DNA from: Salinicola socius
GTDB lineage: Bacteria; Pseudomonadota; Gammaproteobacteria; Pseudomonadales; Halomonadaceae
NCBI RefSeq assembly: GCF_001937195.1
Contig: NZ_MSDO01000004.1
Span: 1 to 64,000, forward strand
Length of the DNA: 64,000 bases
Direction of reading: 5' to 3'
Of this stretch, positions 8,417 to 44,352 are shown piece after piece. How positions within the stretch are numbered: the first letter of the stretch is position 1; every line of letters starts with the position of its first letter. The position numbers were made by a program, and so were the translations under genes. The notes under the pieces were generated by a model, which was not told the origin of the DNA, did no database searches, and worked only from the letters and a program-made list of their open reading frames with translations.

Positions 8417-8492
8417 GGTATCTCCTCGTCGTTTGGGTTGGCACTTCGTGGTGAAGTGCCCGCTTTGAGAAGGAGATTGCGCTCAAATCCAA

Positions 8493-8504
8493 AATGTATA
8501 CATT
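8493..8504. promoter_or_regulatory. Predicted GntR/FCD operator (palindrome)
   Basis: A perfect 12-bp palindrome, AATGTATACATT, in the divergent intergenic region 77 nt upstream of the PdxA-type gene and 138 nt upstream of the regulator gene. FCD-type GntR proteins commonly bind TNGTATACNA-like palindromes. It is the likely binding site of the adjacent regulator. This is motif-based inference. Confidence 0.6.
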
Positions 8505-8641
8505 ATACGTTGGTATTGAGCAGCGGTCGTTCCAGGCGCAGTATGATGGCTTCAGACTGATTCCGAAGCGCGTATCATTGATCGTGCCAAAGCTGAATCG
8601 ATACATTCGATGCGCCACTTTCCATCACCGGTCCCACATTC

Positions 8642-9325
8642 ATGAAGAAGACAGCCACGTCCGCCACGTCATCGCCTCGTTCCGCGATCACCCGGCATTC
8701 GCTTCATGATGCGATTACCAGCCACCTTCGGGACATGATCATCGAAGGCGACCTCGAACCGGGTAAACGCATCTACGAGGGTCCGCTCTGCGAACGCCTG
8801 GGCGTATCGCGTACGCCGTTGCGGGAAGCGCTCCGCTATCTGGCGAGTGAAGGACTCGTTGACCTGACGCCGCAGCGCGGTGCGTCGGTCCGCCAGTTTT
8901 CGGCCAAGGACATTCGGGACATGCTGGTGCTGATTCGTACCCTCGAAGAGCTGGCGGGGCGTCTGGCATGCGCCGAAGCGAGTGACGAGGAGATCGCCGG
9001 GGTTCGAGAGCTGCACGATCAGATGCTCGACTACTATCGGCAGGGAAATCGACTCGATTACTACAAGACCAATCAGCGCATTCACTCCGCCATCGTCGCG
9101 CTAAGCCACAACGAATCACTGATCCAGGTGCATGCATCGCTGCAGTCGAAACTCAAGCGCGTGCGATTCATCGGGCATGAAGGGCAGGAGAAATGGGCGG
9201 CGGCAGTCGCCGAACATGAATCGATGATCGACGCGCTCGAGCGGCGGGAAGCGCATGCGCTGGTGAGCGCACTGAGTGAACATCTTGCTCACGCCTGGGA
9301 GCGAGTCAGGGACGTCGTCTCCTGA
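8642..9325 (+). CDS. GntR-family transcriptional regulator, FCD domain
   Basis: A 227-residue regulator. The N-terminal winged helix (residues about 18-85) contains ERLGVSRTPLREALRYLASEGLV, the classic GntR motif. The C-terminal FCD ligand domain carries metal or acid-binding candidates (ELHDQMLDYY, NQRIHSAIV, AEHESMIDAL). It is divergent from the transporter/dehydrogenase operon and probably represses it until the substrate or an intermediate binds. The ribosome site before this ATG is weak, so the exact start is less certain. Confidence 0.92.
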   Translation: MKKTATSATSSPRSAITRHSLHDAITSHLRDMIIEGDLEPGKRIYEGPLCERLGVSRTPLREALRYLASEGLVDLTPQRGASVRQFSAKDIRDMLVLIRTLEELAGRLACAEASDEEIAGVRELHDQMLDYYRQGNRLDYYKTNQRIHSAIVALSHNESLIQVHASLQSKLKRVRFIGHEGQEKWAAAVAEHESMIDALERREAHALVSALSEHLAHAWERVRDVVS

Positions 9326-10190: not shown

Positions 10191-10264
10191 GCGGGTGTAG
10201 CTCAATGGTAGAGCAGAAGCTTCCCAAGCTTAAGACGAGGGTTCGATTCCCTTCACCCGCTCCA
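10191..10264 (+). tRNA. tRNA-Gly(CCC)
   Basis: A 74-nt tRNA. The acceptor stem GCGGGTG pairs with CACCCGC. It has a D arm GCTC/GAGC, the anticodon loop TTCCCAA (anticodon CCC), the T arm GAGGG-TTCGATT-CCCTT, and an encoded 3' TCCA. It closely matches E. coli glyU. The phage integrase begins 163 nt downstream, so the 3' end of this gene is the probable left attachment site. Confidence 0.97.
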
Positions 10265-10427: not shown

Positions 10428-11672
10428 ATGAAGCGCAATCAGATCAAACGGCGTCCACTCGCGGATACCGTACTCGCCAAGCTTGAACCAGAGTCCCGAG
10501 AATACCGCGAGAGCTACGGTGTCGACCGGCTCTATTTCGTCGTGGCGCCATCGGGGCGCAAGCGTTGGGAAGCACGCTATAAGAAGCCATCCACCGGTCG
10601 GTGGGCGTGGATGGGCCTGGGCGGTTATCCTGACACCTCCGCCAAGCGAGCCCGGGCACAGGCCCAGCATGCCGCCGAACTGCTGGCCGATGGCATCGAT
10701 CCGGTAGAGCACCGGAAGGGCGGACACGAGCACCCGTTCCGCGAAGCTGCCGAAGCTTGGTACCAGGATAAGGTCGATCGCGGTCGGGCGGAGAAAACGA
10801 TCAAAGGCATGCGGTATTGGTTGGACAATGACTCGCTGCCCGCCTTTGGCGATATCGCGATTCATCGGGTGACGCGCCGAGATTGTGCCGCGCTGCAGGA
10901 GTCTATTGAGAAGCGGGGCGCGTTCAACACGGCAGAGAAATCACGCACCTGGTTGAACCAAATTTTCGGCCGCGGTATCGCCCTTGGGCATACCGAGAAC
11001 AACCCCGCCTCAAACTTGGCCGACGTAGCTGCTCAGGCCCCCAAGGAAGAGCGTTATCCACACCTACTTGAGCCAGAGTTGCCGGAGTTCCTTCGGGGTC
11101 TGAGCGAGTCACCCAGCAAAATGATCGTGAAAACTGCCGCTTGGATGGTCGTGCGCACCGCCTCGCGCCCCGGCATGGTTCGTTGGGTTGAGTGGTCAGA
11201 GTTGGATGGTGATGTGTGGCGGGTGCCGGCCGAGAAGATGAAGATGCGCCGCGATCACGTCGTACCGCTGACACGCCAGGTGCTTGAAAGTATCGAGGCA
11301 CTGCGGCCGCTGACCGGCCGATCGCGCTACCTGTTCCCTGGTGAAGGCGAGAAGACGCCGGTCATCTCGGACATGGCTATCAACACCTGCTTTTCGCGGA
11401 TAGGTTACAAGGGAAGGATGACCGGCCACGGCTCAAGACACACGGCGAAGACGCTGCTATCCGAGCACGGTTGGCCGACTGACTGGACCGAGGCCATGTT
11501 AGCCCATACGAAGAAGGGGCTGGAGGGGATCTATAACCAGGCCGAATACTTGCGCCACCGGCAGCAGATGATGCAGTGGTACTGCGACTACCTGGATGCC
11601 CTGGAGCAGGGCATCACGGAGGAGGATCGGCTGGCCTTTCGTGACAGGGTCAAGCGGCAGGTTGGAGGCTGA
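10428..11672 (+). CDS. int: Prophage tyrosine integrase (DUF4102/P4-type)
   Basis: A 414-residue tyrosine recombinase. The N-terminal arm-binding region (RLYFVVAPSGRKRWEARY, GLGGYPDTSAKRARAQA) is of the DUF4102 type, followed by a SAM-like core. The catalytic set is visible: Arg in VRTASRPGMVRW, His-x-x-Arg in GHGSRHTAKT, a second His in LAHTKKG and the Tyr nucleophile in GIYNQAEYL. It is placed directly after tRNA-Gly and transcribed away from it, as for tRNA-targeting integrases. AAAGG precedes the start. Confidence 0.95.
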   Translation: MKRNQIKRRPLADTVLAKLEPESREYRESYGVDRLYFVVAPSGRKRWEARYKKPSTGRWAWMGLGGYPDTSAKRARAQAQHAAELLADGIDPVEHRKGGHEHPFREAAEAWYQDKVDRGRAEKTIKGMRYWLDNDSLPAFGDIAIHRVTRRDCAALQESIEKRGAFNTAEKSRTWLNQIFGRGIALGHTENNPASNLADVAAQAPKEERYPHLLEPELPEFLRGLSESPSKMIVKTAAWMVVRTASRPGMVRWVEWSELDGDVWRVPAEKMKMRRDHVVPLTRQVLESIEALRPLTGRSRYLFPGEGEKTPVISDMAINTCFSRIGYKGRMTGHGSRHTAKTLLSEHGWPTDWTEAMLAHTKKGLEGIYNQAEYLRHRQQMMQWYCDYLDALEQGITEEDRLAFRDRVKRQVGG

Positions 11673-17969: not shown

Positions 17970-18191
17970 CTATGTGCGACGGGGCCGACCTTGAGGGCCG
18001 ATAGGACGGAGAAGCGCGACTTCCACCGCCCGTTCACGATCCATACCCTTGTCGACAAGCTTTTTGACCCGGGTTTTCAAGGTGGCGAGCGGCATATCCT
18101 GCTTGGCTGCTCTGACAGCCATGCCTCCTTCTCTTGCAGCCCCGCCTTTCTTCTTTATGAGCAGCCTTTGATCGCGTGAGCAGATCTTCAC
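17970..18191 (-). CDS. Small basic phage protein, possible DNA-binding
   Basis: A 73-residue Lys/Arg-rich protein (GTG start at 18191). The segment LATLKTRVKKLVDKGMDRERAVEVALLRP resembles a short helix-turn-helix. An internal ATG at 18122 follows a purine-rich stretch but at poor spacing, so the start is unsure. It is the first ordinary gene after the RNA leader of the leftward operon. Confidence 0.5.
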   Translation of the reverse strand: MKICSRDQRLLIKKKGGAAREGGMAVRAAKQDMPLATLKTRVKKLVDKGMDRERAVEVALLRPIGPQGRPRRT

Positions 18192-18306: not shown

Positions 18307-18534
18307 CTAATACAATGCTGGTAGTTGCAGCCATACCCATTTTGACATCCCGTTGGTGAAAAAGAGCCCGGCACCGGGCCGGGCCAAAGGTACGCAGGGT
18401 ATGTAGGTGCCGGTCAGCCCCGGCTGCTCACCACTACGCAGGTGACGCGAGCCCACTATCACCACAACAGCGGGATTCGTTTGCTCATTTGCTGTGGTAA
18501 CTTGGGGTTTCACCACAACAGCAATGGGATACAT
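18307..18534 (-). CDS. Leader ORF of the leftward operon (Ash-like, uncertain)
   Basis: A 75-residue frame beginning MYPIAVVVKPQ. The first 30 residues contain AVVV twice, encoded by the two copies of the regulatory repeat described separately. A terminator hairpin lies inside the frame near residue 54. It resembles P4-type ash leader ORFs in position and in the segment LARPGAGLFFTNG. It may serve mainly as a translated leader rather than a functional protein. Confidence 0.45.
   Translation of the reverse strand: MYPIAVVVKPQVTTANEQTNPAVVVIVGSRHLRSGEQPGLTGTYIPCVPLARPGAGLFFTNGMSKWVWLQLPALY
18358..18385 (-). terminator. Early terminator inside the leftward leader
   Basis: On the minus strand, a GC stem (18379-18384 with 18366-18371, seven-base loop) is followed by TCTTTTTC. 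It lies about 150 nt after the leader ATG and inside the leader frame. This position suits attenuation of the leftward operon. Confidence 0.6.
18459..18522 (-). ncRNA. Candidate P4-type immunity RNA: two direct repeats flanking a complementary element
   Basis: In the leftward transcript the 13-nt sequence GCTGTTGTGGTGA occurs twice (complement of 18510-18522 and of 18459-18471). Between them lies TTACCACAGC (complement of 18491-18500), which can pair with either repeat through ten base pairs with a three-base bulge. This A-B-A order is that of seqA/seqB/seqC in phage P4 RNA immunity. It is followed by a terminator. It is inferred from structure; no RNA end is known. Confidence 0.5.
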
Positions 18535-18654
18535 ATGCCAGATAACAGAGACGGGCGGGACACACCGCGGCCTACTTCACCGCCGCCAGATTGGCAACGC
18601 AACCACGAGACGAGTAGGCGTGAGCCACCTCCACCTCCTAAAGAAGAGAAGTAG
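18535..18654 (+). CDS. Possible 39-residue proline-rich micro-protein
   Basis: A 39-residue frame, MPDNRDGRDTPRPTSPPPDW then RREPPPPPKEEK. It is very rich in Pro and charged residues and ends 4 nt before the two-helix membrane protein. The ribosome site is weak. If real, it is the first gene of a two-gene rightward unit divergent from the leftward leader. Confidence 0.35.
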   Translation: MPDNRDGRDTPRPTSPPPDWQRNHETSRREPPPPPKEEK

Positions 18655-18658
18655 TCAC

Positions 18659-19153
18659 ATGAGCCGAAACAGGACTGAGTTCAACATCTACGTGTCCTAC
18701 AACGTGGAGAAGCTCACCGAGACTTATTACTCGCGCCTGGATCGGCTCTTCACTCTCCTCATGATTCTCATGGGATCCGCCGTTTTTAGCGGTCTCAGCA
18801 GTCAGTATTGGATGGGCGTCGTTATCGTCATCGTGCCGGCTCTCCAGCTCGTCTACCGCTTTGGCGAAGTAGCTGGCCAAGCTGGTTCTCAGAAGCATCG
18901 ATATTCATCTCTCATGAACCGCATGCAACACATGGAGGATGAGGAGCTCGCTGATGCTTTTATCCGGACTCAAGAGCGCGATGTAAGGCCACTGAGTGCG
19001 ATCGAAAGCCTCGCCTTCAATAAGGCGTGCCACATGCGTGGGCAGGCTGACCATTGCGCCGATCTGAATCTCCTCGAGAAATTTCTAGCTGTGTTCATTG
19101 GCGCCAACCCTTGCTCCAGTCCAAAAGCGTTAAAGACCGATCGGCAAGCCTGA
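18659..19153 (+). CDS. Two-helix membrane protein resembling SLATT/S-2TM effector domains
   Basis: A 164-residue protein starting MSRNRTEFNIYVSYNVEKL. An N-terminal helix with YYSRLDRLFTLLMILMGSAVF leads into two adjacent membrane spans (residues about 28-45 and 50-66). A cytosolic helical tail follows (RYSSLMNRMQHMEDEELADAFIRTQERDVRPLSAIESLAFNKA). This layout resembles SLATT-type pore-forming domains found in nucleotide-signalled defence systems. It is an isolated cargo gene on the opposite strand to the early operon, so an exclusion or abortive role is possible. Assignment by pattern only. Confidence 0.6.
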   Translation: MSRNRTEFNIYVSYNVEKLTETYYSRLDRLFTLLMILMGSAVFSGLSSQYWMGVVIVIVPALQLVYRFGEVAGQAGSQKHRYSSLMNRMQHMEDEELADAFIRTQERDVRPLSAIESLAFNKACHMRGQADHCADLNLLEKFLAVFIGANPCSSPKALKTDRQA

Positions 19154-19448
19154 TCTCTGTCCCGCATCGATAAGCCGTCTCCACCGGGGCGCTACGTCCG
19201 CTTGCTTCCCGGCCGCTCCGTTCTGGTATTGGCCGTGGCCGGATCTACCGGCCCAGCCGATTTCCGGGCCCTCCTCTCGCGTGCGGTGCAGCTCGCTCGA
19301 GCACGGAGACGGCTTATCGATGGCCAGCGGATTACGCACCGCTGGCACTGCGTGGGGTCCGAGTTGTTAAAGAGCTACTGCATCCCGAAGCGCCCGCGTC
19401 CGCAGACGCTTTCGGATACAGGCCGCCATCCGCTGGCGGCTGCGTCGT

Positions 19449-20436: not shown

Positions 20437-20472
20437 CTCGTTACCCACGATGTTCTGTTGTCGTGGATAAAG

Positions 20473-20510
20473 TAAAGCAACGCTTTCTTTATGAGTCAAG
20501 CGCAGCTTTA
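20473..20510. promoter_or_regulatory. Two repressor operators upstream of the LuxR-type gene
   Basis: TAAAGC-AAC-GCTTTC at 20473-20487 and TCAAGC-GCA-GCTTTA at 20496-20510, centres 23 bp apart. Both fit the consensus seen between cI and cro. They lie 37-74 nt upstream of the start at 20436. CI control is the likely meaning. Confidence 0.65.
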
Positions 20511-20572: not shown

Positions 20573-21073
20573 TCAACTGCCCAACTGGGCGATGATAGGA
20601 GAGAGAAACTCCCTGGCAAGCCACCATCCTCCACCAAGGATGGACGTGAGGGTAGCGACAAGAGCAAGGATAACGGAGCCATAAAGCTGGTTCTTCGTGA
20701 CAACATTGTCCAGCTTGTCTGAAATACGATCGATCTTGCCCTCGATGCTTGTAGCTTTGACGCGAATATCGCCAACGTCGCGCTCTAGCTGAGTCACGCG
20801 CGCGTGCAAGTCATCCATCGAAGACCCTCCTTTACCACCGTTAACCTTGTTTGCTCCTGAATCTCTTCCTTCAGACTGCCAGCTAGAGTCTCGGTTCCAT
20901 TCAGGACTGTTATCAAGCGGGAAGGGTATTGCTTGACTGATAGTATAGGTGCATCCGTCACCATCGGAATGCACAGGAGTATGCTTCATCAGAAACTGTG
21001 AGCCGTTGATCGAGGTCTCGACGCTTGTCGTGTGATCAACTTTTGTTGTTCGGGCCCCGCCGCTCTCAGCCAT
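20573..21073 (-). CDS. Coiled-coil membrane-anchored protein (XhlA-like), with possible internal start
   Basis: A 166-residue frame from 21073 (GGAGC site, overlapping the upstream stop). The C-terminal 81 residues, MDDLHARVTQLERDVGDIRV onward, form a heptad coiled coil, then one membrane span (SVILALVATLTSILGGGWWLA) and a short tail, like phage XhlA-type proteins. A second ATG at 20818 has a much stronger AAGGAGGG site, so a short form may be the main product. It may be made in the lysogen, next to cI. Confidence 0.6.
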   Translation of the reverse strand: MAESGGARTTKVDHTTSVETSINGSQFLMKHTPVHSDGDGCTYTISQAIPFPLDNSPEWNRDSSWQSEGRDSGANKVNGGKGGSSMDDLHARVTQLERDVGDIRVKATSIEGKIDRISDKLDNVVTKNQLYGSVILALVATLTSILGGGWWLAREFLSPIIAQLGS

Positions 21074-21518: not shown

Positions 21519-22289
21519 CTAGTGCAAAAGCACGCTGTACCAGAACACCTTGCCGATGATGCTCACCTTCTCTGGCCAGTTTTCGTCGAGGTCTTCGTCA
21601 GGATGCTCAAACTTGTCGGGGTTGGCGCTGCGAATGCGCAGCCCACCACCTGGCAAACGGTAGAGGAACTTCACCCTCAGCAACCCGTCATGATCGATCG
21701 CGTACATCTTGCCGTTCTTGATCTGCTTATCGGCTGTGTCTACCCCAACTGAAGCGCCATCCGGCAAGATAGGCTCCATGCTTTCCCCTTCGACATAGGC
21801 ACACGCTGCTGCCTCTTTCGACACACCCGCACTCCTAAGCGTGCTGCGCTTGAAGCGCAAGGCCGCCCCGTTGTTCTCGACTACCTGGGTTCGCCCACCA
21901 CCGCCAGACAACGCGACCTCGCGATACAGCGGAAGCTCTACCTCGTCATCGGCGAGGGGTTGGGAGCGATCCCACGGATCCATGTTCTCGGTGAAGGTCA
22001 GCTCGTTATCGCTGGCGGATTTTCCGTAATCAGCTGGTGACGTCTCGGATATAAGATCTGCAGGCACTGAATCCTCCTGCTCCTCATAAAACCAATCGAT
22101 GGTTTTCCCGCTCAGCTGGGCCAGCATCGCTAGATTCTGGTTGGATATCTTCCCAGAGCGCGGCCATTGACCGACCGCTTGCGCGGAAACCCCGGCTTTC
22201 TCAGCGATAGATGCCTGAGTGACACCCTTCGCCTTCGCCGCCTTGAGCGCTTCCCTGATTCTCGCCTTGAAGGCCTCTACGTTCTGCAC
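21519..22289 (-). CDS. cI: CI-like phage repressor (HTH plus S24 peptidase)
   Basis: A 256-residue LexA/CI-type repressor. The N-terminal XRE helix-turn-helix is VTQASIAEKAGVSAQAVGQW, and the C-terminal S24 domain has the catalytic Ser in VEGESMEPIL and Lys in LLRVKFLYR. I choose the GTG start at 22289 because GAGGG lies 8 nt upstream and one operator falls just outside it. The ATG at 22337 lacks a ribosome site and would put that operator inside the gene. RecA-stimulated self-cleavage would allow SOS induction. Confidence 0.9.
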   Translation of the reverse strand: MQNVEAFKARIREALKAAKAKGVTQASIAEKAGVSAQAVGQWPRSGKISNQNLAMLAQLSGKTIDWFYEEQEDSVPADLISETSPADYGKSASDNELTFTENMDPWDRSQPLADDEVELPLYREVALSGGGGRTQVVENNGAALRFKRSTLRSAGVSKEAAACAYVEGESMEPILPDGASVGVDTADKQIKNGKMYAIDHDGLLRVKFLYRLPGGGLRIRSANPDKFEHPDEDLDENWPEKVSIIGKVFWYSVLLH

Positions 22290-22302
22290 TCGGTTTCCCT
22301 CG

Positions 22303-22383
22303 TTAAGCGTTGCTTTAATTTTCGAGGGGGTAGGCATGCTAGGTAAAGCAAGCTATGCTTTACAGATATAAAGCCATGCTTTA
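22303..22383. promoter_or_regulatory. CI/Cro operator region (three sites)
   Basis: Three sites of the form TAAAGC-N3-GCTTTA: 22303-22317 (TTAAGC half), 22348-22362 (GCAAGC half, also overlapping a wider TAAAGC) and 22369-22383 (perfect). Centres are 45 and 21 bp apart. They fill the space between the divergent cI and cro starts, as in lambda. Confidence 0.75.
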
Positions 22384-22393
22384 GGTAATCGAG

Positions 22394-22639
22394 ATGATCA
22401 GCAAGGCCATTGCTTATTTTGGCGACTCTCGTTCTGCGTTATGCAAAGCGGTCGGCATGTCCCCCCAGTTCCTTTCCCAGGTCAGCACCGGTAAGCGGCC
22501 GTTGCCGCCCCGTTATGCCGTCCTGATCGAGGAGGCCACCTGTGGGCAGGTAACCGCTGCCGAGTTGTTGCCGAGCGTCTTCGCTCCTCGATCTACCCAG
22601 AAGCGTACCGCAGACGATGAGACCGCCACTTCCGCATGA
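22394..22639 (+). CDS. Cro/YdaS-like regulator
   Basis: An 81-residue DNA-binding protein: FGDSRSALCKAVGMSPQFLSQVSTGKRPLPPRYAVLIEEATCGQVTAAELLP is the Cro/YdaS helix-turn-helix pattern. It is divergent from cI with shared operators, so it is the lytic-side regulator and the first gene of the rightward early operon. Confidence 0.85.
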   Translation: MISKAIAYFGDSRSALCKAVGMSPQFLSQVSTGKRPLPPRYAVLIEEATCGQVTAAELLPSVFAPRSTQKRTADDETATSA

Positions 22640-22697: not shown

Positions 22698-22928
22698 TCA
22701 GCTAGAAGGTCGACCCCAATGAGCCGCCTTCTCAACGATGCCGTCGATCTCGGCGCGGACGCGGGCCGACGGTCGATCCATTGCGGTACCGCCAACCGCC
22801 TGCAAAGCGGCCACTCGCGGATCCTTGTCCGTCACCACTGCTCGGTAAACACCCATTGCCTCAAGGCGCCCGAGAATCTCGGCCTGCATAAGCAAGATCG
22901 CATCCAGCTTTTCGTCAGTTGTGGCCAT
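22698..22928 (-). CDS. 76-residue protein, antisense in the rightward early operon (paralogue A)
   Basis: MATTDEKLDAILLMQAEILGRLEAMG begins this 76-residue protein. A near-identical N terminus and the same length occur in the gene at 23337-23567. AAGGG lies 9 nt before the ATG. The N-terminal part is an amphipathic helix suited to a coiled coil. It is encoded opposite to cro and the replication genes. Function unknown, but the paired conservation argues it is translated. Confidence 0.55.
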   Translation of the reverse strand: MATTDEKLDAILLMQAEILGRLEAMGVYRAVVTDKDPRVAALQAVGGTAMDRPSARVRAEIDGIVEKAAHWGRPSS

Positions 22929-23046
22929 GTCGTCAGCCCTTCGGTGCGGAGTGTTGAAACTCTGACTGTAGCCACTGACGGCATGGCCCTCTATTGCACA
23001 CAAGTCGACCACCAGCGGGCGGCGGCCACAACTCAGGGAGCGCGAC

Positions 23047-23340
23047 ATGAGCCTGATCAAACGCATCCGATTCGTTATCCGCGCTAGCCGCGCCGGTCGT
23101 GGGGAGGAACTCGACAAAGTGTTCGCAGGCATGGAGCGGGGTGCCACGTTCACTGGCGCCAAGGCCCACCTTGTGCTGGCGCTGGCGGATAGTCGCCGGT
23201 GGATCGAGATGAACATGCGGATGAACCACCACCGCTTCCTCACTGAAGAGATGCTCGGCCAGGCATGGGCGCGACGCGTGGAGAAGCACATCAAGGCGAC
23301 GCGCACTCACGACCTGACCGAAATTCTGGAGGAACGTTAA
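23047..23340 (+). CDS. Phage early protein of unknown function
   Basis: A 97-residue helical, basic protein, MSLIKRIRFVIRASRAGRGE..., with an AGGGAG site 8 nt upstream. It lies between the two antisense paralogues and overlaps the 3' end of the second by 4 nt. No family recognised. Confidence 0.6.
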   Translation: MSLIKRIRFVIRASRAGRGEELDKVFAGMERGATFTGAKAHLVLALADSRRWIEMNMRMNHHRFLTEEMLGQAWARRVEKHIKATRTHDLTEILEER

Positions 23341-23567
23341 TGGTCCTCGAAGGCAGCGATCTTGCGCAGCGAAAGCTGGAGGCTCTTCCACGTCTCGGGC
23401 CCAAAACCGGAATCGGCCAGGTAGTCGATAGCGGCGATGGCCTCTCCACGGTTGTCGTTCGCTTTGGCTTGATCAACGCCGATCTCTCGCTCGATGGCTT
23501 CGAGCCTTCCAAGAATTTCGACCTGCATCACAAGCACAGATTTCAGCAATTCATCAGTTGTGGCCAT
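23337..23567 (-). CDS. 76-residue protein, antisense in the rightward early operon (paralogue B)
   Basis: MATTDELLKSVLVMQVEILGRLEAIER begins this 76-residue protein, paralogous to the gene at 22698-22928. The C-terminal halves differ (here IDYLADSGFGPETWKSLQLSLRKIAAFEDH). AGGG lies about 10 nt upstream. The sequence around both starts is also duplicated, including a short stretch reading CGGCATGGCCCTCTAT. It was probably duplicated as a module with its upstream region. Confidence 0.55.
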   Translation of the reverse strand: MATTDELLKSVLVMQVEILGRLEAIEREIGVDQAKANDNRGEAIAAIDYLADSGFGPETWKSLQLSLRKIAAFEDH

Positions 23568-23686: not shown

Positions 23687-24022
23687 ATGACAGTACACAT
23701 TCCGGATTACTCGAGCTGGACGCGGGACGAACTGCTCGACGAGACCCACAAGCAAGCATCGATCCAGGCGCGGTTATCGGGCGAGGAGGGCAATGACATC
23801 CACGCCCGTCGCATGAAGATCACCACCGCAGGCGCTCGCCATCACGCCGCGATGCTGGCGCTACTCGAGCTGACCGAGCCATTCGATCAGGATGCCGCCG
23901 CCCGGGTCGAGAAGGCCAAAGCCTGGCATCGCAGTGAGCGAGGTCGCTACTACGCCATCGCGCTTGGTACGGAGCACCTGCAACGACATGACGCGGAATC
24001 CATGGGGCAGGTGAGGGCATGA
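23687..24022 (+). CDS. Phage early protein of unknown function
   Basis: A 111-residue protein starting MTVHIPDYSSWTRDELLDETHKQASIQARL, with GGGGGAG upstream. It is mostly helical and charged. It overlaps the replication gene start by 4 nt (ATGA), so it is coupled to replication protein synthesis. Not recognised. Confidence 0.65.
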   Translation: MTVHIPDYSSWTRDELLDETHKQASIQARLSGEEGNDIHARRMKITTAGARHHAAMLALLELTEPFDQDAAARVEKAKAWHRSERGRYYAIALGTEHLQRHDAESMGQVRA

Positions 24023-24885
24023 GCCTTCTCGCCATGAGCTGGGCGCGTCAGTCGCTCAAGACGCTGCCCACTGACGTCAAGACGCCGTCTCGTCTGGCGC
24101 TGATGCTGCTGGCGGATTACGCCAACGAGCAGCACGTCTGCTGGCCGGGTCTGAGCACGATGGCGGAGGAGATGGGCTGTTCCAAGCGGAGCGTCCAGCG
24201 TGCCATCGATCTGCTCGAGGAGCGCGGTTTGGTGGTGGTCGAGAGCCGCCAGGACAAGACCGGTCGGCAGCAATCAAACCGGTACCGGCTGGCGGTCGGG
24301 GTAGGGTGTCAATCTGACACCCCCACTATCTCCACCAATTCGGGGGAGGGTGACAATCTGACACCCCGGGGTGTCAGCGGTGTCACCCCCGGGGTGTCAC
24401 GGCTGTCACCCCTTGAATCTTCCATTGAATCTACCACCAACCCCAACACACACGCCGCTGGGCCGGACGAGCTATTCGATTATTCGCAACTGGCAGACGA
24501 CGGCCAACCGCTGACCGGTGGTGCTCGCCAGTTCCCGATGACGCTCGACTGGCAACCTGATCCCGAGCAGTTCGCCGCGGCTTGTCTGCGTGCCGGGCTG
24601 CGATCCGACACCCAGCCGCCGGCTGCCCAGCTCGCCAACTTCACTGCTCACCATGCCGATTTTCCGAATCGTCGCCATGGCTCGATGTCCTGGACCCAGA
24701 AGCTCGTCGACTGGCTCCGCCGCGACCTGAGTCAATCCCACCCGAAACCGACCGGAGGTGCCGCAAATGCAAACGGCCGCCCACGTACTCCCCAACGCCG
24801 TCGCACAGCTGCCGAAGCACGGGCAGCCGCCGAAGCGGAACGCCGAGAACGAGAAGGTTCATTCGATGGGCAACGGCACCGCTAG
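24019..24885 (+). CDS. Replication initiator, lambda O-like (HTH N-terminus)
   Basis: A 288-residue protein. The N-terminal winged helix (residues about 15-90) has STMAEEMGCSKRSVQRAIDLLEERGLV. A Gly/Ser/Pro-rich linker (about 95-135) is encoded by the iteron cluster. A DnaT-like segment follows (MTLDWQPDPEQFAAACLRAG...FTAHHADFPNRRHGSMSWTQKLVDWLRRDL) with a basic tail. The organisation mirrors lambda O: origin-binding head, origin inside the gene, helicase-loader contact at the end. Its 3' end overlaps the P-like gene by about 119 nt. Confidence 0.82.
   Translation: MSLLAMSWARQSLKTLPTDVKTPSRLALMLLADYANEQHVCWPGLSTMAEEMGCSKRSVQRAIDLLEERGLVVVESRQDKTGRQQSNRYRLAVGVGCQSDTPTISTNSGEGDNLTPRGVSGVTPGVSRLSPLESSIESTTNPNTHAAGPDELFDYSQLADDGQPLTGGARQFPMTLDWQPDPEQFAAACLRAGLRSDTQPPAAQLANFTAHHADFPNRRHGSMSWTQKLVDWLRRDLSQSHPKPTGGAANANGRPRTPQRRRTAAEARAAAEAERREREGSFDGQRHR
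24304..24412. other. Predicted phage replication origin (iterons inside the O-like gene)
   Basis: Eight copies of a nine-base half-site GGGGTGTCA (or GGGTGACA) in alternating orientation, at 24304, 24315, 24348, 24359, 24368, 24381, 24391 and 24404. The first two pairs are palindromes with an ATC spacer; the last two pairs have four-base spacers. They lie in the linker-coding part of the initiator gene, just as lambda ori lies inside O. Confidence 0.75.
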
Positions 24886-43096: not shown

Positions 43097-43175
43097 GTAT
43101 CCTGACCCTGTTCTGATCTATTGACGACTACGTCTGCCTGAGCCACTATCTCCTTGTCGCTGCAAAATCAGCGGC

Positions 43176-43336
43176 CGGGATTAGCAGCCCGATCACACGA
43201 AGGCGCACCAAAGCGCTGTCAGCGCTTTTTTTGTGCCCGTCAGTTATGGCGGGTCGTGCGTGGGAGGCTTCGGCCTGCCGGGTTCCTTTGTGTCCGGTCT
43301 GCTAACCCGCGTACGGTCCGCCTCCCAATTTAGCAG
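43176..43336 (+). ncRNA. C4-like antisense RNA region upstream of the antirepressor
   Basis: The stretch CTGCTAACCCGCGTACGGT around 43299-43317 and the flanking CCTCCCA match my memory of the C4 RNA of P1, P7 and P22-like phages. TGGGAGGC (43261-43268) pairs with GCCTCCCA (43320-43327). The element CTGCTAACCCG is complementary to TTAGCAG at 43330-43336 near the antirepressor and to CGGGATTAGCAG at 43176-43187. C4 blocks translation of the antirepressor leader. Exact ends are not known. Confidence 0.7.
43210..43232 (+). terminator. Terminator inside the antirepressor leader
   Basis: An eight-base-pair AAAGCGCT/AGCGCTTT stem with a GTC loop, and a T-run to 43232. It lies upstream of the most C4-like part. 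It could insulate the C4 unit from tail transcription or end a short upstream RNA. Confidence 0.65.
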
Positions 43337-43371
43337 TTGGTGGTGGACTCCAAGCACAAAGGAGAATCACC

Positions 43372-44352
43372 ATGGCTACGCAGGCCGCTGCAGTAATTCC
43401 GTTCCAGTTCGAAGCCCTCGAAGTTCGCACTCTGTTGATTGACGATCAGCCATGGTTTGTTGCCATGGATGTCGCTGCCGTGTTGCTGTATTCAGATTCA
43501 CAGGCGATGACGCGAAAACTCGAAGAGGATGAAATTCAAAACCGACAAATCGTCGGTTTCGGGAATCGGGGCGCAACGCTGATCAACGAGTCAGGCCTTT
43601 ACTCCGCGATCCTTCGGAGCCGAAAAGCTGAGGCTAAGCGCTTCAAGAAGTGGGTGACCGCCGAGGTGCTTCCGACCATTCGCAAGACTGGCGGCTACCA
43701 GGCCGAGACGATCGGCGGCGAGACCATTGGCACCGATGGCCTCAAGATCCTGCGGGAACTGATCGGCAAGAAGGTGCGCGTGTTGCCGCACAGCGCCCGC
43801 AACAGCGCCCAACACCGGCTCTGGAATTTGCTACACACCCGCTTCAACGTGCCCAAGGCCGAGATGATCGCAGCCAATGACTTCGACGCTGCTGCCAACT
43901 TCGTCGGCCAGTGGGCCATCGAAGGCGAATACCTGGAGCGAGCCCGGCCGCCGGGAGAGACAATGGTGATCAACTTCCCCAAGCGCCAGCAGGCGTTGGA
44001 TTTCACACCTACCGGGCTCTATGGCAACGAAGCCTGGAAGAATGATCTGAGTCTGTTGATGGCCGAACTTCGCCACGCCGCCAGGAACGGCAATACACTT
44101 CGCGTCGAGAATGTTGAAGGGCCGCTCGAGGAGATGCTGGCGCTTCGCCACTTCCTGGAAATCGCCGAAGGGGGCTTGTCACCCAGAAACCGGCAATTGC
44201 TAGCAGGCAAAGCCAACGCGCTGGAGTGCGCCTTCGTTCAGCGTGTTGGGCCAGCGCTCAAGCTGCTGGACTCAAAACTCTACGGCGACATGCGAGAACA
44301 CATTGGCGTGCTGGCGCGCTACTTACGGCAAGGCAGTTCCTTGTCTGCCTAA
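43372..44352 (+). CDS. Phage antirepressor, BRO-N domain
   Basis: A 326-residue protein. The N-terminal BRO domain (residues about 8-110) has FQFEALEVRTLLIDDQPWFVAMDVAAVL, LINESGLYSAILRSRKAEAKRFKKWVTAEVLPTIRKTGGY. The C-terminal part is distinct, with HSARNSAQHRLWNLLHTRFNVPKAEMI. AAAGGAG precedes the ATG. The C4-like region upstream implies RNA-level control. It would counter a repressor and so promote lysis or control superinfection. Confidence 0.92.
   Translation: MATQAAAVIPFQFEALEVRTLLIDDQPWFVAMDVAAVLLYSDSQAMTRKLEEDEIQNRQIVGFGNRGATLINESGLYSAILRSRKAEAKRFKKWVTAEVLPTIRKTGGYQAETIGGETIGTDGLKILRELIGKKVRVLPHSARNSAQHRLWNLLHTRFNVPKAEMIAANDFDAAANFVGQWAIEGEYLERARPPGETMVINFPKRQQALDFTPTGLYGNEAWKNDLSLLMAELRHAARNGNTLRVENVEGPLEEMLALRHFLEIAEGGLSPRNRQLLAGKANALECAFVQRVGPALKLLDSKLYGDMREHIGVLARYLRQGSSLSA

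Follow-up and report, generated by a model that had tools for sequence, protein, structure and literature searches.

To our knowledge, there are few known ways in which a phage RNA can itself make RNA polymerase ignore stop signals, and put of phage HK022 is the textbook case of factor-free antitermination. The putL and putR sites form two stem-loops in the early phage transcript, putR lies downstream of pR, and antitermination proceeds without a dedicated factor via the β′ zinc-binding domain (PMC9378689). We compared put with a two-hairpin element, SL1-SL2, that we located in the left early region of a Salinicola socius prophage. If transcribed, as we suppose, SL1-SL2 would likewise present two stem-loops in an early phage transcript, and in some relatives it lies between Cro-like and CII-like genes, a place resembling that of putR. 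Put is about 70 nt long and SL1-SL2 about 40 nt, and in a one-way comparison our element model (R1) scored at best 8 bits over HK022 24-34 kb, which is no match. Whereas put works without a dedicated protein, a boxA near SL1-SL2 hints at Nus factors. Lambda nut shares with SL1-SL2 a same-strand upstream boxA (11 contexts), short hairpins with fixed loops and, in some members (L101, L034), the nutR place before cII. Unlike nut, SL1-SL2 has two hairpins and lies 0.6-2 kb from boxA where boxA was found; hairpins are present near boxA, and no N-like protein was recognized among the prophage proteins scanned against PHROG and Pfam. The P4 CI RNA has two pairing targets, seqA and seqC, which lie on its upstream and downstream sides (PMC4825925). 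This RNA and the P1 C4 RNA (RF01695), with isrK, resemble our locus at 18.4 kb in that a phage leader combines direct repeats with an element complementary to them and with a terminator; 18.4 kb itself has no C4 match, and the prophage's member of that family lies at 43242-43328. Lambda sieB is a plus-strand gene inside the leftward operon, as is the accessory pair described here, and in P22 an antisense RNA, sas, controls sieB (PMC12197685). The resemblance of our accessory protein to SieB is one of gene place.

The window, by which we mean the whole 64,000-nt stretch of DNA analyzed here, comes from a genome of 4.17 Mb in 156 contigs. The top phage DNA match to 15.0-22.7 kb is the Halomonas phage QHHSV-1. 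Leftward genes of the prophage include RdgC and a helicase, its head and tail genes run rightward, and the following features serve as landmarks:

10428-11672: integrase, adjoining tRNA-Gly at 10191-10264
17970-18122, minus strand: 50-aa basic ORF, possibly the first leftward gene past the terminator
18535-18654, plus strand: 39-aa proline-rich ORF, first gene of the divergent unit, with similar small ORFs in relatives
18659-19153, plus strand: 164-aa protein of phrog_6315 (unknown function), in a sieB-like place in the left operon
20472-20492: CI-operator-like site, a copy of the cI-cro palindrome GTAAAGCANNNNNTGCTTTAC with 2 mismatches, candidate left operator
20592-20619, minus strand: sigma-70-like leftward promoter TTGCCA-16-TATCAT from the promoter scan, candidate pL
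21519-22337: CI-like repressor
22343-22363: candidate CI operator in the cI-cro interval, the perfectly palindromic GTAAAGCANNNNNTGCTTTAC
22394-22639: Cro-like gene
24019-24885: O-like gene

The earlier note had described the 18.4-kb leader as driving the leftward early operon. We rejected a start at 18.5 kb in view of the second CI-operator-like site at 20472-20492. This site, together with the leftward promoter at 20619-20592, places the likely pL about 2 kb upstream of the 18.4-kb region, which is thus probably not the first leader of the left operon. The promoter is the sole promoter-like site to pass the scan in 17.6-22.7 kb, where 2.0 would be expected by chance. The phrog_6315 protein is helical and probably membrane-bound, as judged by eye. 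It occurs in 15 of 250 family genomes, this genome included; its predicted structure is poor (mean pLDDT 58), and a SLATT membrane domain gave a sub-threshold hint in one relative (E 0.019). The 39-aa ORF has no Pfam match, and the 50-aa ORF has neither a PHROG nor a Pfam match. Further right, two antisense ORFs between cro and the O-like gene (22698-23306 and 23337-23567, minus strand) have in common a similar stretch starting with MATTDE.

At 18.4 kb, the leftward strand carries four features that recall a P4-type leader:

18510-18522, minus strand: repeat A, GCTGTTGTGGTGA, 12 bases from the plus-strand start codon of the divergent gene, kept in 6 relatives
18491-18500, minus strand: element B, TTACCACAGC, complementary to A and C
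18459-18471, minus strand: repeat C, GCTGTTGTGGTGA, enclosed by a small inverted repeat
about 18360-18385, minus strand: intrinsic terminator-like site from the terminator scan, an 8-bp stem followed by CTTTTTC

Two 13-nt direct repeats with a complementary element between them had been described here, and we indeed find both copies without mismatch and B in its place; no further 13-mer in the window comes within 1 mismatch. Element B can pair with A or C as an 11-bp helix, and an inverted repeat CCCGCT...AGTGGG (18474-18452, arms read by eye) flanks repeat C. The hairpin reported for the leftward leader is also present, with stem and T-run at 18385-18365 on the minus strand. It is the sole terminator-like site on this strand between 17641 and 22700, in a scan of 17.6-22.7 kb that returned 4 sites on both strands against 4.4 expected by chance. 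The surrounding stretch (18399-18359, minus strand) recurs at about 80-90% identity in many family genomes, in the manner of a repeated host-type terminator unit.

The A-B-C arrangement exceeds chance, since in 6 of the 14 viral contigs that contain the repeat pair it stands directly in front of the same SL1-SL2 element; seven of the other eight are repetitive stretches, as seen by eye, and one (L152) is not. The complementarity behind the proposed pairing is kept in relatives. As with the two flanking targets in P4, B is complementary to A and to C in all seven distinct contexts (the window, L003/L022, L023, L026, L040/L099, L043 and L116), and in each of these the B-C complementarity beats 967 to 998 of 1000 shuffles of B. 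The pairing register varies between relatives, and folding of 18355-18540 is scarcely better than that of shuffles (z -1.98, with 9 of 200 shuffles equally good). The leader ORF to which the hairpin had been assigned (18307-18534, 75 codons) does not hold up, its start, end and length not being kept in 6 relatives. In some of them the reading across repeat C and SL1 is similar on account of DNA conservation, and the ORF's ATG comes from the CATATG at the divergent gene, seen on the opposite strand.

Viewed on the plus strand, A immediately precedes the divergent gene's ribosome binding site in the 5 relatives whose flank was inspected. In other SL1-SL2 members, a single phage-specific inverted repeat takes a comparable position and covers the -10 and the start of an opposite-strand promoter. 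A and B may represent that inverted repeat and C a further copy, and we infer that all three belong to the promoter/operator region of the divergent unit in one phage subgroup rather than to a P4 CI target set. It appears more likely that A-B-C form part of the control region of the divergent accessory pair in its sieB-like position; a plain operator reading leaves the conserved B-C complementarity unexplained. CI itself is unlikely to be the regulator because the cI-cro palindrome differs, and we rejected CI operators at A, B and C, the cI-cro stretch containing no copy of A within 1 mismatch. In the stretches searched at five other class-1 loci, which may or may not contain cI-cro, the search returned A and C and nothing else.

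Directly 3′ of repeat C lies the conserved element CGCGUCACCUGCGUAGUGGUGAGCAGCCGGGGCUGACCGGC, in which SL1-SL2 spans 18445-18409 on the minus strand:

18428-18445, minus strand: SL1, UCACC-UGCGUAGU-GGUGA, the first hairpin (element model 71.5 bits)
18409-18424, minus strand: SL2, GCCGG-GGCUGA-CCGGC, the second hairpin, whose stem changes with compensation among relatives

First seen in a search of 97 related genomes, SL1-SL2 forms a family that recurs across many viral contigs and prophages, in which the SL1 sequence is fixed, the stems change with compensation and the loops fall into classes. CGCG directly before SL1 is conserved in many members, and frequent SL2 loops are of the GGCUGA, GGCAGA, GAGAGA and GCU types. 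A strict pattern detected 18 viral contigs, and freeing the outer SL1 stem yielded 18 contigs with SL1 intact in all and no new contig. The short pattern CACCTGCGNAGTGGTG matched 87 contigs, near the chance estimate for 15 fixed bases in that collection. From its matches, 51 loci with a second hairpin or the CGCG prefix were chosen by eye for the model search and the others dropped. For context counts, 59 identifiers were reduced to 51 distinct contexts, several of which are close relatives and hence not independent.

Among named genome contigs, 13 of 16 look real, and L157, L160 and L164 were dropped for want of a convincing second hairpin. The 13 come from Pseudomonas entomophila, P. capeferrum, P. 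laurentiana, P. parakoreensis, Kushneria, Bisbaumannia, Modicisalibacter, three Halomonas, Advenella, a Burkholderiales MAG and a Nanoarchaeota MAG. In the last of these, CGCG-SL1 is found at 431-411 (minus strand) of L159, possibly a misbinned phage contig. Within the family of the Salinicola window, 22 of 250 genomes match the element at E 0.01, several weak matches being coding DNA by eye, and 10 of 250, this genome included, do so at E 1e-8 or better; class-wide, 2 of 369 match at E 1e-4, one of them this genome. The window has a single copy (next best 9.4 bits at 24.6 kb, minus strand) and none in the right operon. L023 and L079 each carry two copies on one strand, of which the second in L023 scores low (20.3 bits, E 0.015). 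About 170 nt upstream of the full element, L066 (12248-12279) and L100 (920-951) have an isolated SL2-like hairpin with a GAGAGA loop. SL1-SL2 has no Rfam match, and in a limited search of one open-access library no description of it appeared among the titles and abstract openings listed.

We analyzed the conservation of both stems. In 48 distinct rows, 97.9% of cells pair, and two-sided changes are found in 7 of 10 pairs (18 cells), with 0 of 500 shuffles as good; the alignment was fitted to the model and retains relatedness, and 8 of its matches are weak (E 0.015 to 0.87). In a model-free check of the 51 contexts, a stem weight of at least 5 follows SL1 in 71% of contexts versus 13% of shuffled windows, and one of at least 4 in 96% versus 42%. 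G-U versus A-C counts are 1 versus 4 for the outer pair of SL1 and 7 versus 6 for SL2; these wobble pairs do not settle the strand, nor the choice between RNA and DNA. We read SL1-SL2 on the leftward strand because of boxA, the terminators and the gene direction. An inverted repeat upstream of SL1 was considered as a third RNA hairpin (G-U versus A-C 39 to 22, many stems being false) and set aside, since most of the G-U excess in the credible stems falls, by eye, on one column shared with the opposite-strand -10. Readings as an anti-CRISPR repeat mimic or a ribozyme were considered and not retained.

Upstream of the element, the leftward strand contains two further features:

19364-19375, minus strand: boxA-like GCTCTTTAACAA, 0.9 kb upstream of SL1-SL2
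19323-19346, minus strand: hairpin GCCAGCGG-UGCGUAAU-CCGCUGGC after boxA, its loop resembling the SL1 loop

A boxA is located upstream on the same strand in 11 of the 51 contexts and on the opposite strand in 0, the single downstream match being the same site viewed from the second L023 copy; the other 40 contexts have none in upstream stretches of 3 kb or less. In the window, 19375-19160 (minus strand) holds boxA, the hairpin with loop UGCGUAAU and then, by eye, long complementary arms at about 19318 and 19170; the boxA-hairpin part recurs in L005, L006, L007, L009 and L026. A terminator-like site occurs within 150 nt after SL1-SL2 in 7 of 51 contexts, compared with 15 of 898 random windows, and is not found in that interval in the other 44. 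A CII-like gene follows in 5 of 51 contexts (L034, L101, L028, L032 and L120, the last by the same protein start as L034). In L101 and L034, CI-like and Cro-like genes come first, then a small antisense ORF, SL1-SL2 and a CII-like gene. The second gene downstream in L076 is O-like; elsewhere the element is followed by a regulator (L024), a repressor (L096) or a head gene (L110).

Taken together, we tentatively propose, at somewhat less than even confidence, that SL1-SL2 is the conserved core of a control region inside the left early operon, with leftward genes on one side and the divergent accessory pair on the other, and acts in cis as an antitermination-type RNA. This function, for a candidate read on the leftward strand, is our best guess, favored because of the covarying stems, the nutR/putR-like place before CII-like genes, the strand bias of boxA and the terminators. 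Starting from the element, its place, that bias and the terminator as observed, transcription might proceed as follows. After induction, a leftward transcript would start at about 20.58 kb, pass boxA, run antisense through the accessory pair and then make SL1-SL2. The nascent SL1-SL2, with or after boxA, would change RNA polymerase, much as nut sites and HK022 put RNA do, such that it passes terminators such as 18385-18365. Read-through past 18385 would then carry transcription into the 50-aa ORF and on to the recombination genes. Against this stand the single copy in the window, the lack of a match in HK022 24-34 kb, the wobble counts that leave the strand undecided, the 40 contexts lacking boxA, the 44 lacking a terminator and the members that precede non-early genes (such as the head gene in L110). 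It is possible, though we would sooner doubt than assert it, that SL1-SL2 represents a phage antitermination RNA of a new class with no sequence relationship to HK022 put or lambda nut. In temperate phages of Pseudomonas, Halomonas relatives and some Burkholderiales, it would serve early operons on the left as well as on the right, often with an antisense accessory gene's promoter lying across it. If true, a compact conserved element at the nut/put place outside enterics would provide a second, easily cloned system, and antitermination by SL1-SL2 could explain early expression in phages without a recognizable N protein.

A role as DNA in an opposite-strand promoter is the main rival to antitermination, even though we consider it unlikely. 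SL1-SL2 would here be an activator-binding stretch comparable to lambda pRE, which depends on CII and lies between cro and cII; SL1 would sit around the -35, and an inverted repeat would cover both the -10 and the start. Scanning with an E. coli matrix and without a shuffled control, we found that in 22 of 51 contexts the best opposite-strand promoter has its -10 (mostly TANGCT) at a single position, 11-14 nt beyond SL1, and 19 of the 22 use TNCGCA, inside SL1, as -35. The same strand has no such clustering, and we dropped the idea of a same-strand promoter ending just before SL1. Of the 36 contexts with a listed divergent ORF, 24 have their nearest start codon at a distance of 50-61 nt from SL1, a CII-like gene is next in the five contexts named above, and the wobble count is compatible with a DNA site. 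The loop classes of SL2, however, stay while its stems compensate, and no CII-like protein was recognized among five right-operon ORFs of the window. Moreover, SL1 and mostly a recognizable SL2 are kept in 13 contexts that we judged by eye to be without a divergent gene, yet in 0 of 13 is the best promoter at the usual place. SL1-SL2 is thus not merely part of the opposite-strand promoter. This class is a judgment, with a doubtful ORF in L030, L110 and L159 and a weak second hairpin in some (L061, L122, L159); L035, L079, L108, L111 and the window have no divergent ORF listed and were nevertheless left in the other class.

We weighed two other RNA readings. The two hairpins followed by a terminator could form one stand-alone sRNA of about 100 nt, to which weak sRNA-family matches resting on the terminator part may be added (RyhB 18.8 bits, E 1.4; SorX E 0.49). 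We regard this as improbable given the 44 contexts without a terminator-like site within 150 nt, the next gene starting 55-100 nt after SL1 in several contexts, and the absence of a fixed same-strand promoter. More improbable still is the P4-like control proposed in the earlier note for 18.36-18.53 kb, in which a processed RNA containing B would pair with A and C in the leader and cause termination at 18385-18365. The complementarity kept in 7 of 7 contexts, the position of C between inverted-repeat arms and a terminator-like site following in 4 of 7 (the window, L023, L026 and L043) speak for it. The differing pairing register, the place of A before the divergent gene's ribosome binding site and a region that is probably not the operon start speak against it, as does the Rfam C4 covariance model (RF01695). 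This model recovers the CI RNA of the P4 record itself (8420-8507, 74.9 bits; isrK matches at 8615-8692), but in a search with the Rfam models the C4 clan has no match at 17.9-19.0 kb even at E 10. We thus rejected a P4-like leader at 18.4 kb, its conserved A-B-C complementarity notwithstanding.

The Rfam models located an RNA immunity region elsewhere in the prophage, about 25 kb from the 18.4-kb repeats:

43143-43195, plus strand: c4-a1b1 (50.8 bits)
43156-43232, plus strand: isrK (68.1 bits)
43242-43328, plus strand: C4 (73.9 bits)
43372-44352, plus strand: antirepressor Ant (Bro-N; phrog_130, phrog_245), presumed C4 target

These RNAs stand in the order c4-a1b1, isrK, C4, matching that in P4, directly before the Ant gene. 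The expectation that protein and RNA immunity exist side by side is borne out by these matches in so far as an RNA immunity region of predicted P4/P1 type accompanies CI/Cro; its place is 43143-43328, upstream of Ant, rather than 18.36-18.53 kb. A northern blot for a P4-type RNA at 18.4 kb would consequently look in the wrong place, the immunity RNA being at 43.2 kb. No exact complementary run of 8 was found between C4 and the isrK side. A 7-nt stretch of C4 is complementary to 43330-43336, and a 9-nt stretch is complementary to 43355-43363, just before the ant start. The whole isrK/C4-Ant locus (43143-44352, plus strand) lies shortly upstream of the tape-measure gene.
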